A DNA stretch of 32,864 nucleotides from NCBI GenBank assembly GCA_944325905.1, contig CALVBY010000011.1:1-32864 (forward strand). The letters are read 5' to 3'. Below the pieces are notes generated by a model that was given only the letters and a program-made list of their open reading frames with translations, had not been told where the DNA came from and searched no databases. Within the stretch, counting starts at the first letter, position 1. Every line of letters starts with the position of its first letter. The stretch is from Candidatus Gastranaerophilales bacterium (GTDB lineage: Bacteria; Cyanobacteriota; Vampirovibrionia; Gastranaerophilales; Gastranaerophilaceae). A program made the position numbers and the translations under genes. Below are positions 26,259-32,788 of this stretch, piece by piece.

Positions 26259-28460
26259 TTATTTTGTTTTTTTCTTTTGAAATTTTTGTTTGCCGTTATT
26301 AGGTCTTTTGGGCGCAGCTGTTTGAGCGGAGGTTTGAATACGTTTTACGCTGAATACATCAGGCAGCGCCTGTAGACAGTTTATAACCTTTTTAAGCGTT
26401 TCAATATTATCAAGTTCCAAGCCTATTTCTATTATACCTATATTGTTTCTGGATTTAACATTTGCGGTGATTATGTTTGTATTGTTATCTGATACTGCTG
26501 CAATAATATCTTTCAGCATACCTAACTTGTCACCGGTTTCAATTCGTATTGTTGTGGTATATGTTTTGTTTGTATTTGTACCGGCCCATTTAATGTCCAT
26601 CATTCTTTCAGGTTCGATGTATTCAAGAGTTTTACAATCTATTCTGTGGACAGTTACCCCTTTAGATCTTGTTACTACTCCGACAATTGGTTCTCCAGGT
26701 ATTGGAGAGCAGCATCTCGCAAATGAATACATCAATCCCTCAAGTCCTACAATATCTTTTTCGGATTTCTTTTTATTTGAGGTATGGAACTTGTCTTCAA
26801 TAGTTTTTTCTTTTGGTTTTTGAAGTTTATTAATAATTTTATTTAAAGTCGTTTCACCATAACCTAATGCAGCAAATAGGTCTTCGGCGGAGACATAGTT
26901 CATTTGTTTGGCTATTTTTTCAAATTCACCCTGCTTCATGTATTCATCAAAAGAAGCTTTTGTAAGTTCATGTTCAAGGTGTGATTTACCAAGTTCTATA
27001 TGCTCTTCTCGATTATTTTTCTTGAACCATTGTTTTATTTTTGACGATGCTTGCTTGGTGACTACAAAATTTAGCCAATCAAGTCTTGGAGCTGGTGTTT
27101 TAGATGTCAAAATTTCGACAATATCCCCGTTTACTATTTTTGTATCCAGTTGAGCAATTCGTCCATTGATTTTAGCCCCAATTGTCCTATGACCAACATC
27201 GCTGTGGATACGATATGCAAAATCTATAGGGGTAGCATCTTTTGGTAAGTCCAGGACATCGCCGCCAGGGGTAAAAGCAAATACTTGATCTGAAAATAAG
27301 TCAAGTTTGACAGAATTAACATAATCTTCTGCATTTTTCATTTCCTTGTCATATTCAACCATTTTTCGCATCCAAGAAAATTGCAGATCAGATGCATTAT
27401 TTGCTTTTTCAGAGCCTTTTTCTTTATATCTCCAGTGAGCAGCAACACCGTATTCTGCTATTTCATGCATTTCCCAAGTTCTTATTTGTACTTCAAGCGG
27501 TTTTGAACGAGGTCCAATGACGGATGTGTGCAAGGATTGATATAGGTTTCCTTTGGGCATTGCTATGTAATCTTTAAAGCGTCCCGGAATTGGCTTAAAT
27601 TGTGAGTGTATAAGGCCAAGAACTTCGTAACATTCTTTTTCGGTATCAACGATTACTCTTACCGCAGTTATGTCGTATAAGTCATGAAATGCAACATTTT
27701 GCCGTTTCATTTTACAGTATATGCTGTAATAGTGTTTTGCTCTGCCCGTAATTTGTGCATTTATACCTGCTGCTTTTACGTCTTTTGAAATTTTATCTAT
27801 AAGCAGTTGTACTGTTTGTTCACGTTCTGCCTTTTTTTGTGAAACAAGTTGGGCTATTTCAAAATATTTGTCGGTTTCCAAATATCTTAAAGATAAATCT
27901 TCGAGTTCTGCCTTTATTTTCCCCATACCTAATCGGTTAGCAAGTGGTGCAAATATGTCCAATGTTTCTTGAGCGATTCGTTTCTGTTTGTTTGCTGCCA
28001 TAAAATTAAGTGTTCGCATATTGTGAAGTCTGTCGGCAAGTTTTAAGAATATAATTCTTATGTCACTTGCCATTGCAATGAATAAGCGTCTGAAATTTTC
28101 AGCTTGACGTTCTTCCTTGGACTTGAACTTTAATTTACTCAATTTAGTGACACCTTGAACAAGAGTCAGGACATCTTCTCCAAACAGGTTCTTTATTTCT
28201 TCAGGTTTTGTCTCGGTATCTTCTAAAATATCGTGCAAAAAAGCAGCAATAAGAGTATGTGTATCAACCTTTAAATCTACAAGGATTTTGGCAACCTCTA
28301 CGGGGTGTATTATGTATGGCTCTTCAGAGATTCGGTATTGCCCTTCGTGAAGTTTTTTTGCATAGTGATATGCTTTTTCAATTAGTGCAATATCTTCAGT
28401 GCTTCTATTTTGTTCTATAAGTTTTTGTTTGATTCCTGCAAAAAGTTCTACGTCGGACAT
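26259..28460 (-). CDS. rel: Bifunctional (p)ppGpp synthetase/hydrolase (Rel)
   Basis: A 733-residue long RSH protein controlling the stringent response. Hydrolase domain: IIHPVEVA (His52) and FLHDILEDT (His76-Asp77, the HD motif), with both acids intact. Synthetase domain: TAVRVIVDTEKECYEVLGLI, and GRFKDYIAMPKGNLYQSLHT, which carries the conserved substrate residues. Then TGS (VFAFTPGGDVLDLPKDATP), a zinc-finger-like Cys cluster (SFARCCSPIPGEPIVG) and a C-terminal ACT domain. All suggest a bifunctional enzyme. The ATG at 28458-28460 is preferred: the frame extends six codons upstream but the promoter sits there. There is no Shine-Dalgarno, so the mRNA seems almost leaderless. Confidence 0.96.
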   Translation of the reverse strand: MSDVELFAGIKQKLIEQNRSTEDIALIEKAYHYAKKLHEGQYRISEEPYIIHPVEVAKILVDLKVDTHTLIAAFLHDILEDTETKPEEIKNLFGEDVLTLVQGVTKLSKLKFKSKEERQAENFRRLFIAMASDIRIIFLKLADRLHNMRTLNFMAANKQKRIAQETLDIFAPLANRLGMGKIKAELEDLSLRYLETDKYFEIAQLVSQKKAEREQTVQLLIDKISKDVKAAGINAQITGRAKHYYSIYCKMKRQNVAFHDLYDITAVRVIVDTEKECYEVLGLIHSQFKPIPGRFKDYIAMPKGNLYQSLHTSVIGPRSKPLEVQIRTWEMHEIAEYGVAAHWRYKEKGSEKANNASDLQFSWMRKMVEYDKEMKNAEDYVNSVKLDLFSDQVFAFTPGGDVLDLPKDATPIDFAYRIHSDVGHRTIGAKINGRIAQLDTKIVNGDIVEILTSKTPAPRLDWLNFVVTKQASSKIKQWFKKNNREEHIELGKSHLEHELTKASFDEYMKQGEFEKIAKQMNYVSAEDLFAALGYGETTLNKIINKLQKPKEKTIEDKFHTSNKKKSEKDIVGLEGLMYSFARCCSPIPGEPIVGVVTRSKGVTVHRIDCKTLEYIEPERMMDIKWAGTNTNKTYTTTIRIETGDKLGMLKDIIAAVSDNNTNIITANVKSRNNIGIIEIGLELDNIETLKKVINCLQALPDVFSVKRIQTSAQTAAPKRPNNGKQKFQKKKTK

Positions 28461-28469
28461 GGTATAATA

Positions 28470-28498
28470 ATGATACAAATTTTTTATATTTTTTTCAA
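28470..28498 (-). promoter_or_regulatory. Promoter of rel, near-leaderless
   Basis: Minus strand TTGAAA (28498-28493), 17-base spacer, TATCAT (28475-28470). The RNA would start two or three bases before the ATG at 28460. This also excludes the longer open frame to 28478. Confidence 0.55.
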
Positions 28499-28532
28499 GT
28501 AAAATTAAATAATTTCATACAGAAGGACTAAC

Positions 28533-28820
28533 ATGTTTAGACAAACAAAAGATGGATTATTACTAAATTTAAAAATAATACCAAATTCTTCCAAGAATGA
28601 TATTGTTGTTTTGGATGATATTGTGAAGGTTAAAATAACGGCACAACCGGTAGAAGGGAAGGCAAACAAAGCTTTGATTGAATTTTTGTCAAAAGAATTC
28701 AAGGTCCCAAAAACATCGATTGAAATTGTTAAAGGTGTTTCAGGAAAAGAAAAAACTCTTTTATTCAGAGTTTTTGATGATGAAAAGGTAAAGTTTTTTA
28801 AAGACAAATTTATAAAGTAG
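28533..28820 (+). CDS. DUF167 / YggU-family protein
   Basis: 95 residues of the UPF0235 (YggU) family: LLNLKIIPNSSKNDIV at the start, VKVKITAQPVEGKANKALIEFL in the middle and VKGVSGKEKTLLF at the end, the three blocks that define it. Members are small alpha/beta proteins of unknown biochemical role, widespread in bacteria and archaea. AAGGAC precedes the ATG. It is transcribed divergently from rel and is followed after 48 bases by the first lineage-type hypothetical protein. Confidence 0.92.
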   Translation: MFRQTKDGLLLNLKIIPNSSKNDIVVLDDIVKVKITAQPVEGKANKALIEFLSKEFKVPKTSIEIVKGVSGKEKTLLFRVFDDEKVKFFKDKFIK

Positions 28821-28868
28821 CAAAAAAATGCTTTAGAGCTGTTAAAAGCAATAAAAGGAGAAAATAAA

Positions 28869-29477
28869 ATGCGAATAAGTACAAATTATTCAACCGGAAA
28901 CAATTCTTACTCAAATTACAATCATCAAAAGAGTAATAAACCTTGTTTTCAAGCGAATTTAGTTCCTGCATTGAAAGAAACTCTAATCATGGAGGCTAAA
29001 AGAGCAGGTAAACTCGGCAAGTTAAATGAACAGTTTAAGAATATTGCTAACTGGGGTTGCCCTAAGTCTTTTATTAATACAAGTTATGATTTAAAGCGTG
29101 GAAAAACTTTATTAGCTTTAGAAAATTACCATTTGTCTAAAAACTACGGTGGTAGTTTAGTTGGGAAAAAGGACAGCAGTCTTTTAGATCAGTTCTTATC
29201 CCTTACAGAAAAAAAAGTTATGGATGCAGAAAAGAATATTGTTGATAGTGTTGCATTAAATAAAAAAGAGGCGACTTTTGCAATATTTAACAATCCGGAA
29301 TATGTTCAAAAACTAACAGGTGAAGCGAACCCGTCAATAAAAAAATTGAGTTCTGCAATTCATCAATTATCAGAAGATGAACTGATAGAATATCGTTTTG
29401 GTCTGAAAGATAAAAATTATAATATAGAAGATGATTTTTTAATAAACTCATTTGTAGGTGTTGAAAAAAATAATTAG
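28869..29477 (+). CDS. Hypothetical protein with N-terminal MRI...CFQAN motif
   Basis: 202 residues, not recognised. It begins with an Asn/Ser/Tyr-rich low-complexity stretch (MRISTNYSTGNNSYSNYN) ending at KPCFQANL (24-31), then a mostly helical body. The start resembles those of the proteins at 31080 (MRISFINLNN...VFFIGN) and 31949 (MKIASLNLPKINFTSQN): M(R/K)I, polar spacer, then one Phe followed by a short small/polar group. This may be a lineage-specific sorting or recognition tag (inference). A strong AAGGAG precedes the ATG. Its stop codon overlaps the promoter of the attenuator leader. Confidence 0.68.
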   Translation: MRISTNYSTGNNSYSNYNHQKSNKPCFQANLVPALKETLIMEAKRAGKLGKLNEQFKNIANWGCPKSFINTSYDLKRGKTLLALENYHLSKNYGGSLVGKKDSSLLDQFLSLTEKKVMDAEKNIVDSVALNKKEATFAIFNNPEYVQKLTGEANPSIKKLSSAIHQLSEDELIEYRFGLKDKNYNIEDDFLINSFVGVEKNN

Positions 29478-29489
29478 TTGTGGTAATAT
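29461..29489 (+). promoter_or_regulatory. Promoter of the leader-peptide/attenuator transcript
   Basis: TTGAAA (29461-29466), 17-base spacer, TAATAT (29484-29489). It overlaps the end of the preceding gene. RNA would start near 29496, just before the leader-peptide ribosome site (AAGGA, 29500-29504). Confidence 0.55.
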
Positions 29490-29513
29490 TTGTCCACGTA
29501 AGGAAAAAAGAAA

Positions 29514-29567
29514 ATGGTAAATATATTTGTAAAATTTCATCATCATTCACATAGCACCCTCGGGTAA
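29514..29567 (+). CDS. 17-residue histidine-rich leader peptide
   Basis: The product is MVNIFVKFHHHSHSTLG. Four of its 17 codons are His (CAT at 29538-29546, three in a row, and 29550-29552). AAGGA lies nine bases before the ATG. It has the style of amino-acid operon leaders such as E. coli hisL, with its run of His codons, or pheL and trpL: a short hydrophobic start, a run of the regulating amino acid, then a stop just before paired RNA segments. The stop codon (29565-29567) directly precedes the first attenuator segment that could be freed. The peptide itself need have no function; its translation would be the sensor for charged tRNA(His). The reading is inference from layout; the sequence is unambiguous. 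Confidence 0.62.
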   Translation: MVNIFVKFHHHSHSTLG

Positions 29568-29656
29568 GCTATGGAATTGATGTTTCGCTTTTACAAATAA
29601 GTTCAATTCTATAAAAAATAGCTTCCCGGGGATTTAAAGCGAGAAGTTGTTTTTTT
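29550..29656 (+). promoter_or_regulatory. His-type transcription attenuator with alternative hairpins
   Basis: Four segments can pair in exclusive ways. 1:2 CATAGC (29550-29555) with GCTATG (29568-29573). 2:3 TATGGAATTGA (29570-29580) with TCAATTCTATA (29603-29613), 11 pairs with one G-U; alternatively AGCTAT (29567-29572) with ATAGCT (29618-29623). 3:4 AGCTTC (29620-29625) with GAAGTT (29643-29648), one G-U, followed by TGTTTTTTT. TCGCTTT (29585-29591) can also pair with AAAGCGA (29636-29642) in the terminator loop. A ribosome stalled on the His codons (29538-29552) would cover segment 1 and leave 2 free to pair with 3, disrupting the terminator. One that reaches the stop would cover segment 2 and let 3:4 form. 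Confidence 0.6.
29620..29656 (+). terminator. Intrinsic terminator of the attenuator
   Basis: Stem AGCTTC/GAAGTT, 17-base loop, then TG and seven T (29650-29656). The stem is short, so the terminator is probably moderate and tunable, as expected for an attenuator and less so for a constitutive stop. Confidence 0.55.
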
Positions 29657-29682
29657 ATCGAATTGGAGGTTAAAATAAAAAT

Positions 29683-31047
29683 ATGTCACTAGTAAATATA
29701 ATTTCAGCAATTGGAAATAATAGCAGCATTTATCCTTTAATAGTTCGTGATTGCGGTATAGAAGTCCCGACGAAAATTGCTATGACTTATAACCAGAACA
29801 AAGAGAATAAGAAAATAGCATGGCTTGGAGCTCGAGAAAGATTTATTGATGAGTATTCTGTATCTGCAGTTTGGCTGGGTGGTATTCCTTTAATTGACAA
29901 GGTGGGCTCTAAACTTATCAAAAAAGTTAAAAATATTGGTCTTAATTCCGATGTGAATTTAAAACTTATAAGTGACGAGGAAAAATATAATAAAAAACTT
30001 AAATCTGGCAAAGTTGCAGAAGATTTATATCAAGGGTTTGAGTACAATATCAAAAAATTTGCTAATGTTCCGGAAGCAAAAGAAGCTGTTGAAGATTTAA
30101 TTAAAGTAAAAAATAACAAAAAGCTTTTTGAAGGATTAATGAATGCCAAATTCATTGCATCAATTGCTATACCAATTGCCTTGATGGGTTTTGTTATACC
30201 AAAATTAATATTTGCATCGACGGCTAAAAAGATGGAAAAATATAAACAAGAAAATCCAAACAAAGATTACGCAAATTTAACTTTTGGAGGAAAAGATTTT
30301 GATCAATTTATACGCGGCAAATCTAAGATGACGACTTTCCAAGGTGCTTTGACATCAGTTCTTACTAACTTTACAACTGTTCAAAAAATGGCTGTCACTG
30401 ATGGTGGCTATGCGGTTGGCAGAATTGTTACGGCAAGAAAGAAAAATGAAGCGATAGACTTGGCGTTCAAGATGTCGGGTATGATGTTCCTAAATTTTGT
30501 TGCTCCACACTGGATTGAAAAAGCTTTTAATAAGATTACTGACGTAAATTTAGATCCTAAAATGTTCGTTAATAAAAGATTCCTGGTAGGCATAAAGAAT
30601 AATAGCCTCCAGTTGCCTGCTTCAAATTCTGCAAAAGATATTATTGATTTTATTGACAATAATCCTAACGCATTATTTACAAAGCTTGCAGGTAAATATG
30701 ATAAAGTTAAATTGCTTAAAACGGGAATTAGAGATCCTCGTGCTTATGTTGATGTAAAAGAATTGGTTAAATTCAAATCCAATATTGAAAAATTCGCGCA
30801 GAATGCCAGATCTCAAGGCGTAATTCCTAAGACTTTTGCTAAAGCTGGCCAAAATATGGATATGATAAAATTTGCAAACAAATCTTTGAAGTTACGTTCA
30901 TTAACAATTTTAGCAAATATTGGTTTGAGTAGTTTCTTGCTTGCATATTGCTTGCCAAAAGCACAATTTATATTCAGAGAGTGGTTTACTGGTTCAAAGT
31001 TGGAACCAGGGCTTGTTGAAACTCCTAAAAATATTGAAAATAACTAG
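29683..31047 (+). CDS. Hypothetical multi-helix membrane protein
   Basis: 454 residues, not recognised as a known family. It starts MSLVNIISAIGNNSSIYPLI, then a soluble region with the striking block EYSVSAVWLGGIPLID (about 57-72). One strong membrane helix lies near 155-180 (FIASIAIPIALMGFVIPKLI), a weaker one near 265-285 (MSGMMFLNFVAP), and a C-terminal one near 410-430 (ILANIGLSSFLLAYCLP). Between them are basic, helical segments (KLAGKYDKVKLLKTG). No signal peptide or catalytic motif. A GGAGG lies 13 bases before the ATG, rather far. It is the first gene behind the histidine-type attenuator and precedes the two phosphatase-like genes by 32 bases, so it is probably co-transcribed with them. 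Confidence 0.72.
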   Translation: MSLVNIISAIGNNSSIYPLIVRDCGIEVPTKIAMTYNQNKENKKIAWLGARERFIDEYSVSAVWLGGIPLIDKVGSKLIKKVKNIGLNSDVNLKLISDEEKYNKKLKSGKVAEDLYQGFEYNIKKFANVPEAKEAVEDLIKVKNNKKLFEGLMNAKFIASIAIPIALMGFVIPKLIFASTAKKMEKYKQENPNKDYANLTFGGKDFDQFIRGKSKMTTFQGALTSVLTNFTTVQKMAVTDGGYAVGRIVTARKKNEAIDLAFKMSGMMFLNFVAPHWIEKAFNKITDVNLDPKMFVNKRFLVGIKNNSLQLPASNSAKDIIDFIDNNPNALFTKLAGKYDKVKLLKTGIRDPRAYVDVKELVKFKSNIEKFAQNARSQGVIPKTFAKAGQNMDMIKFANKSLKLRSLTILANIGLSSFLLAYCLPKAQFIFREWFTGSKLEPGLVETPKNIENN

Positions 31048-31079: not shown

Positions 31080-31895
31080 ATGCGTATTAGTTTTATAAAT
31101 TTAAATAATAGTAAAGAAGTATTTTTTATAGGCAATAAAGACCCTAAAAAGCCTTCTAAAAGCAGAAGAAAGGGTGTTTATAAAGCAGCTGATAATTCAA
31201 GTTTGCCAGATAGTTTTTCCAAATCAAGTAAAGTTGGAAAGTCCGGTAGCAAGTCTTCTATTAACTTTGAAACTATTGATACGTGGGAAACATATGTAAG
31301 AAAAAAACTTCCAGTGCCTATAAAAAGAGTTGGAAAAAACTGCTATAGAGGTGAGGCTCTTTTGTATACTCCTAAAAGAATGAACGAACTTAAAAAGAGA
31401 GGAGTTGAAAGAGTAATTGATTTGGCAGGATTGGAACATTATGATGAATTATGTGCACAAAAAGGCTTTGATTATGTTGCATTCCCCATATTTTCAGAGT
31501 GTGAGAAAAATCCGATATTTTTAACCAGAGAACAGTATGAAAAGGTTGTTAAAGAATCCTGGCCTAGAGTAGAAAAATATGATGATAATGAGTTTGACAG
31601 AAAAGGTCTGCAATTTATCAAAGATTTTAAAAAATTTGTTGACGTTATTAATGAAGGAAAATTTTATATCTGTTGTAATCGCGGAAGAGTCAGAACAAAT
31701 TTGGCATTGTTAATGAATCAGTATTTTAATCCTAAGTGGAATGGTGATAAGTCGTTACGCCCTGATGATGATGAAAAAGTTTTGCTTCAAGAGTTTTATT
31801 ATAAGCTTTCAGAAAAAGACAAAAATGATCTAGGATTTAGTAAAGAATTTGATAATAATACAAGAAAAAGTCTTGATATACCTGATGATTGGTAA
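31080..31895 (+). CDS. Tyrosine/dual-specificity phosphatase-like protein A
   Basis: 271 residues. An N-terminal polar, basic, low-complexity tail (1-75; PKKPSKSRRK, Ser-rich) precedes a PTP-like domain: NCYRGEALLYTPKRMNELKK (88-107) and RVIDLAGLEHYDEL (111-124), typical of the beta-strand/loop start of DSP and Y_phosphatase3 proteins, and the loop YICCNRGRVRT with Cys199 and Arg205 (CX5R). The usual His before the catalytic Cys is Cys198. The tail KEFDNNTRKSLDI is shared with the next gene. The catalytic pieces are present, so a phosphatase (protein or inositide) is plausible, but the general acid Asp is not identified. The start MRISF...VFFIGN carries the lineage N-terminal motif. No clear Shine-Dalgarno. 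Confidence 0.68.
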   Translation: MRISFINLNNSKEVFFIGNKDPKKPSKSRRKGVYKAADNSSLPDSFSKSSKVGKSGSKSSINFETIDTWETYVRKKLPVPIKRVGKNCYRGEALLYTPKRMNELKKRGVERVIDLAGLEHYDELCAQKGFDYVAFPIFSECEKNPIFLTREQYEKVVKESWPRVEKYDDNEFDRKGLQFIKDFKKFVDVINEGKFYICCNRGRVRTNLALLMNQYFNPKWNGDKSLRPDDDEKVLLQEFYYKLSEKDKNDLGFSKEFDNNTRKSLDIPDDW

Positions 31896-31948: not shown

Positions 31949-32788
31949 ATGAAGATTGCATCCTTAAATTTGCCTAAAATTAATTTCACATCTCAGAATA
32001 GTTATTATAGCTCATGGTCAGAAGAAGACGAACTGGGTAATTTGGCCGATGATTGGGGTGGTTCAAAGATTCGTGACGCTATTAGAAATCACATGTATCC
32101 ACAATTTATTTTTGATGATAATTCATCAAAGAAGTTGCCATCAAATGTGATGTCTATTGAAGATGTATTTGTACCCAATTTACAAAATATTGGTTCAGGT
32201 TCATACAGAGGTGCATCTTTATCAAGGAATACACAATATTTGGATTTATTAGCTAGAAGTGGTGTAAAAACAATTATTGATCTGGTTGGTTTTAAAAAAT
32301 TGCAAGACGCTTGTGCTGAAAAAAATCTTAAGTACTATAAGTACGAGGTGCCTCATAATTATTGGTTAAATCCTATTTTTATAGATAATCAAGAATTGCT
32401 TGCAAAAAGAACAACGGAATTGGCTAGAGAAGGTTTATCCAAATCAGAATTTAATTCGCAGATCGATTATTATAAAAATAGAATTAATATTGAACGAGCA
32501 GAATATATGGAAAAATTTATTGGTCTTATTGATACAATGAAGGAAGGTTTTTTCTATATCGGTTGTGATTTGGGAGAGTGTAGAACTCCAAATTTATTGG
32601 CCTTGAATTCGTACTTTAATCCGGATTGGCAAGGTGAAAAAATCCCTCCTACTAATGATTTTGTTTTAAAATTAATAAAAAATATGTATAAAAATATGAC
32701 GGATGTCGATAAAGAACGATTAGGATTTACAAAAGAATTCGATGAAAAATTAAGAAGTGAACTCGATATAAAAAATGAGGGGAATTAA
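31949..32788 (+). CDS. Tyrosine/dual-specificity phosphatase-like protein B
   Basis: 279 residues, a clear paralogue of the preceding protein: SYRGASLSRNTQYLDLLARS (85-104), IIDLVGFKKLQDAC (109-122), the loop FYIGCDLGECRT with Cys206 and Arg212 (CX5R), then YFNPDWQGEK and KEFDEKLRSELDI, all matched in protein A (YFNPKWNGDK, KEFDNNTRKSLDI). Here Gly replaces the His before the catalytic Cys. An extra helical insert with Lys/Arg/Glu lies at about 150-190. The ATG at 31949 is chosen because GAG precedes it and the longer TTG start (31889) would overlap protein A. MKIASLNLPKINFTSQN at the N-terminus carries the lineage motif. Its stop lies inside the terminator. Confidence 0.68.
   Translation: MKIASLNLPKINFTSQNSYYSSWSEEDELGNLADDWGGSKIRDAIRNHMYPQFIFDDNSSKKLPSNVMSIEDVFVPNLQNIGSGSYRGASLSRNTQYLDLLARSGVKTIIDLVGFKKLQDACAEKNLKYYKYEVPHNYWLNPIFIDNQELLAKRTTELAREGLSKSEFNSQIDYYKNRINIERAEYMEKFIGLIDTMKEGFFYIGCDLGECRTPNLLALNSYFNPDWQGEKIPPTNDFVLKLIKNMYKNMTDVDKERLGFTKEFDEKLRSELDIKNEGN

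Follow-up and report, generated by a model that had tools for sequence, protein, structure and literature searches.

A predicted histidine attenuator in front of a nearly histidine-free membrane protein of Gastranaerophilales

The window analysed here, a stretch of 32,864 nucleotides, is contig C11 of the 1.6-Mb metagenome-assembled genome G000, and it carries between positions 29461 and 29682 a compact leader region followed by a gene for a membrane protein that we call T454 (Table 1). The promoter, the AAGGA motif, the 17-codon open reading frame (ORF) with its histidine codons, the alternative hairpins and the terminator with seven T that the initial annotation had reported were all recovered. 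The four His codons, each of them CAT, lie at 29538-29546 and 29550-29552, and the T-run spans 29651-29657. The same annotation had proposed a classic attenuation geometry, with the His codons placed on segment 1 and the pairing 2:3 competing with 3:4, and both the inverted repeats and the ribosome-position folding described below agree with it. The terminator stem can be extended such that UUCAAUUC pairs with GAAUUGGA, adjoining the T454 ribosome-binding site. The interval 29490-29670 folds with an energy z-score of -5.0 relative to dinucleotide shuffles, none of 200 being as good. Across the 124 leaders in which a promoter site was found, the promoter score is 8.9 of 12 versus 7.1 in shuffles, and the commonest -35 element is TTGAAA.

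Table 1 Features of the leader region and of the genes behind it, in window coordinates
Feature	Position	Strand	Basis and remarks
Promoter	29461..29489	+	-35 TTGAAA 29461-29466, 17-nt spacer, -10 TAATAT 29484-29489; read from sequence
Leader ORF Shine-Dalgarno (SD), AAGGA	29500..29504	+	Sequence; also 5' of most relatives' leaders
Leader ORF, 17 codons	29514..29567	+	MVNIFVKFHHHSHSTLG, then stop; ATG 29514, TAA 29565-29567
Hairpin 1:2 (anti-antiterminator)	29524..29599	+	Arms 29524-29555/29568-29599; inverted repeats, fold, consensus fold of 12 relatives
Antiterminator 2:3	29558..29631	+	Stalled-ribosome model 29558-29580/29603-29631; inverted repeat 29563-29580/29603-29627; covariation
Terminator hairpin 3:4	29603..29668	+	Core 29613-29655 (arms 29613-29628/29640-29655); inverted repeats, fold model
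T454 ribosome-binding site, GGAGG	29665..29669	+	Partly inside the extended terminator stem
T454	29683..31047	+	454-aa mostly helical membrane protein with one histidine; conserved target of the putative switch
Phosphatase-like ORF	31080..31895	+	Weak Pfam hits; genus-specific passenger of the transcript
Second phosphatase-like ORF	31949..32788	+	Paralog of the first; PF13350 E = 0.046, below cut-off

Upstream of the leader, within 26259-29477, a RelA/SpoT gene is divergent from a short gene pair (a YggU family DUF167 gene and a further ORF) that leads to the leader, and most of the window's genus has the same gene order. Downstream of T454, one or two phosphatase-like ORFs are found in most genomes of the window's genus and were seen only there; in other genera the next gene after T454 is mostly convergent. 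The genes behind the leader had been described as a membrane protein and two phosphatase-like proteins; of these the membrane protein belongs to the conserved unit, while the phosphatase-like pair is a feature of one genus. The name phosphatase-like is itself provisional, drawing on sub-threshold Pfam hits and on CX5R-type motifs (CNRGRVR and CDLGECR) that resemble those of tyrosine phosphatases.

Members of the T454 family are roughly 450 residues long. The AlphaFold model of T454 is all-helical with a mean pLDDT of 78.8, and the sequence has two strong hydrophobic segments, at 158-176 and 406-424, and no other clear ones. T454 has no Pfam, NCBIfam or PDB-sequence match, its model has no PDB or viral fold match with E<=0.001, and none of the Pfam, NCBIfam or fold comparisons connected it to a transporter family. 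Its composition is distinctive. Only 19 histidines occur among the 15,196 residues of 35 aligned orthologs, 23 of which have none at all; the His content of orthologs is 0.16% (45 sequences, slightly redundant) versus 1.56% in other proteins of the window and 1.02% in T454 paralogs, a roughly tenfold depletion.

Distant paralogs of T454 (about 26% identity) occur at G000:C58:3072-4415 (loci L065 and L250) and at L056, L061 and L244-L308. These genes have a conserved upstream ORF of their own, 25-30 codons in length, that starts with M and ends in LRRNSIIKANAPIVKLMNLIWGL before the stop codon; most of the family retains it with synonymous changes, it occurs also in family f6, and it is shortened to MIINLRRRYKNI in the window's own genome. 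Its sequence is compatible with an arginine-codon leader, with an arrest peptide or with a small protein; a comparison of the paralog family with arginine biosynthesis gave no clear link.

When a genome collection was scanned with the T454 protein, 15 loci came up, with best-segment identities of 43-93%, and all 15 have a His leader; the named relatives are 'Candidatus Gastranaerophilales' metagenome-assembled genomes. With 98 further stretches added to the earlier ones, the set comprised the upstream regions of 128 orthologs from the same bacterial order, with identities of 44-93%; a few of these are the same genome entered twice via two collections. Every one of the 128 contained a short ORF in which three or more of nine codons were for His, versus five of 128 on the reverse strand. 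At the same threshold on the forward strand Leu reached 90, Lys 75 and Ile 70 of these regions, and at four or more in nine codons His was found in 117 of 128 versus 33 of 128 for Leu. Judged from these upstream sequences, it is confirmed that the His cluster is not due to chance. Outside the cluster the leader peptide and even its genomic site vary among orthologs, and the 128 leaders amount to 122 different peptides; His is encoded 535 times by CAT and 35 times by CAC, and three different stop codons are in use. The number and spacing of His differ as well (HHHSH, HHLHHH, HIHHH, HHHNHHHCH), and in distant relatives the His codons shift position yet keep frame and count, with SD, start and stop retained in most.

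The leader also travels with T454 itself, since the neighbouring genes around the two differ at loci L029 and L030. A covariance model built from 12 leaders and searched against 192 genomes of the order matched 74, nearly always immediately 5' of a T454 ortholog, and in G000 its sole match is the window leader, with no second copy. No His leader precedes any of the eight distant T454 homologs (E 1e-25 to 1e-37), and none was found before hisB or hisD in 20 stretches from HisB-positive relatives. In 12 relatives, 95.7% of antiterminator pairs and 96.0% of terminator pairs are paired, three pairs of each stem are changed on both sides, and pairing drops to 33-60% when the stems are slid out of register. 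The alignment of relatives that the initial annotation had suggested as a check gave both things it looked for, conserved His codons and compensatory changes in the stems.

Ribosome-position modelling is consistent with a switch. In the window, a model ribosome stalled on His codons 9-11 allows the antiterminator to fold, one at the last His codon gives mixed folding, and one at the stop codon leaves the terminator to fold in the free RNA. The behaviour extends to the family: in 118 leaders with a clear hairpin, compared with controls in which the middle was shuffled, the mean probability that the terminator 5' arm is paired upstream was 0.68 in the stalled state, 0.11 at the stop and 0.34 in the controls, and the antiterminator exceeded 0.5 in 87%, 1% and 19%, respectively. 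Equilibrium folding at full length makes the switch visible in only 39 of 128 leaders versus 20 of 384 controls, so the family-wide claim relies on co-transcriptional folding order; we infer that this weak equilibrium signal is what would be expected if the order of synthesis decides folding. A run of five T precedes the ribosome-binding site in 93 of 128 leaders, abutted by the hairpin in 71, and is lacking in 35 of 128. Exposure of the ribosome-binding site, considered as a general control of translation, gave a weak and inconsistent signal.

Taken together, sequence and modelling make the window leader very probably a ribosome-mediated histidine attenuator. When charged tRNA-His is scarce, the ribosome would stall on the leader His codons, segment 2 would pair with segment 3, and the terminator would be prevented and the T454 ribosome-binding site freed. 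When histidine is sufficient, the ribosome would reach the stop codon and cover segment 2, such that the terminator forms and transcription is cut.

The distribution of T454 bears on what such a switch might serve. When 192 genomes of the order were searched in full, with an ortholog cut-off of E<=1e-44, a true ortholog was found in 120 and distant homologs only in eight, while HisB (PF00475) is present in 52 and HisD (PF00815) in 55 of the same genomes and the window genome lacks both. T454 occurs in two of the 52 HisB-positive genomes versus 118 of the 140 HisB-negative ones (Fisher 4e-26, not corrected for phylogeny), and HisD gives the same exclusion, with two HisD-positive genomes that also have T454. 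Tryptophan synthase alpha (TrpA, PF00290) is absent from all genomes with T454, but TrpA is missing more widely, and its absence does not tell genomes with T454 from those without: among TrpA-negative genomes, T454 is found in two of 24 with HisB versus 118 of 139 without it. Two genomes, G013 and G020, have both HisB and T454, and G020 is a genuine exception. In G013 the his genes form a compact operon on a 48-kb contig, and the stretch read (L224, G013:C10:26500-34000) has 42% G+C versus 33% in the window; as this is unlike the AT-rich genome, the operon was probably either gained recently or binned with the genome as foreign DNA. A further 22 of the 192 genomes, such as G003, G050 and G055, have neither HisB nor T454. 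The literature searched contained no paper on histidine auxotrophy in Gastranaerophilales. The claim that none of the genes behind the leader is related to histidine is probably wrong, as T454 occurs almost only where HisB and HisD are missing and is itself nearly free of histidine; from these genomic data the supposed non-histidine locus is probably tied to histidine.

Could the exclusion reflect shared ancestry only, one clade having lost its his genes and independently gained T454? Fifteen genera have T454 only and 21 have HisB only, so most of the contrast does lie between clades. The mixed genera nevertheless keep the exclusion (g34, 5 vs 5; g6, 7 vs 3, with one genome having both; g37, 1 vs 7), the within-genus tests combine to P ~0.009, and the His depletion of T454 is a line of evidence independent of both the leader and the co-occurrence. 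We regard common descent as an unlikely sole cause. The leader itself admits other readings that fare far worse. Clusters of His in general bind Zn, Ni and Cu, and the peptide might act as a metal sensor or arrest peptide rather than count His codons; against this, the sequence flanking the His codons is unconserved, the number and spacing of His vary, and the target is His-poor and linked to His auxotrophy, which renders the idea highly improbable. Even a shade less credible is a noncoding structured RNA, such as a riboswitch, whose conserved CAUCAUCAU reads as His codons by accident. The stems are indeed strongly conserved inside the genus, but the retention of frame and count by moving His codons, the use of CAC for CAT in 35 of 570 codons, the retained SD, start and stop of most leaders, and the lack of any Rfam match all speak against it.

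The alternative with most weight keeps the same His attenuator and makes T454 a starvation-response protein, acting not in uptake but in dormancy, host interaction or a change of the envelope. Only two segments of T454 are clearly hydrophobic, the protein matches no transporter family or fold, and its distant paralogs occur in most genomes of the family, HisB-positive ones included. Its near-exclusive presence in HisB-negative genomes, on the other hand, fits a direct tie to the supply of histidine better than it fits a general response, and we hold this alternative to be plausible while giving it distinctly less than an even chance. The broader reading appears likely: in histidine auxotrophs, a His-tRNA attenuator would switch on a protein for histidine acquisition or for starvation. 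Within it, the co-occurrence leads us to lean towards a role of T454 in acquiring histidine, or in surviving when it is short, in bacteria that lost histidine biosynthesis. More tentatively, with the odds slightly against it, T454 may found a new membrane-protein class through which histidine-auxotrophic gut bacteria obtain histidine, with T454 under its own attenuator and nearly His-free; the paralogs, with a conserved upstream peptide of their own, would then extend the class to another signal.

An attenuator of this kind would provide a widespread protein family without a fold match, from uncultured gut relatives of cyanobacteria, with a function that can be tested, and it would mean that a starvation switch was retained although the pathway it classically controls was lost. 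The RNA regulation, the distribution of the gene and the amino-acid content converge on one nutrient.

Among the closest likenesses is the attenuator of the enteric his operon (hisL; Rfam His_leader), which shares the short His-codon ORF over segment 1, the three alternative hairpins and the intrinsic terminator. While hisL has seven His codons in a row, the window leader has four that are interrupted, and its target is no his enzyme. The Rfam His_leader covariance model gave no match at the gathering threshold or at E<=5, and the leader had no match to the Rfam T-box model. The leader has every classical His attenuator sequence feature tested, yet is outside the Rfam His_leader family. In ermC-type translation-attenuation leaders, too, a stem extends to the ribosome-binding site of the next gene, but the window leader has a T-run terminator, in keeping with the T runs of most of its relatives. 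In some Gram-positive bacteria, his operons or hisZYX transporters are preceded by His-leader attenuators that hold three to five His codons (PMC9413887); these likewise cluster His codons in a leader peptide and can control transport genes. In contrast to them, the present leader belongs to another phylum, T454 is neither HisXYZ nor YuiF, and presence of the unit tracks the loss of biosynthesis. Biosynthetic enzymes are low in their cognate amino acid (Alves and Savageau 2005, discussed in PMC4209129), a similar pattern in which proteins needed in amino-acid starvation avoid that amino acid; there the proteins are biosynthetic enzymes, whereas here a membrane protein of putative auxotrophs avoids histidine completely in most orthologs. 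The mechanism class is already known, including before transporters; what is new is its occurrence in this lineage and phylum, before this target family and in connection with auxotrophy.
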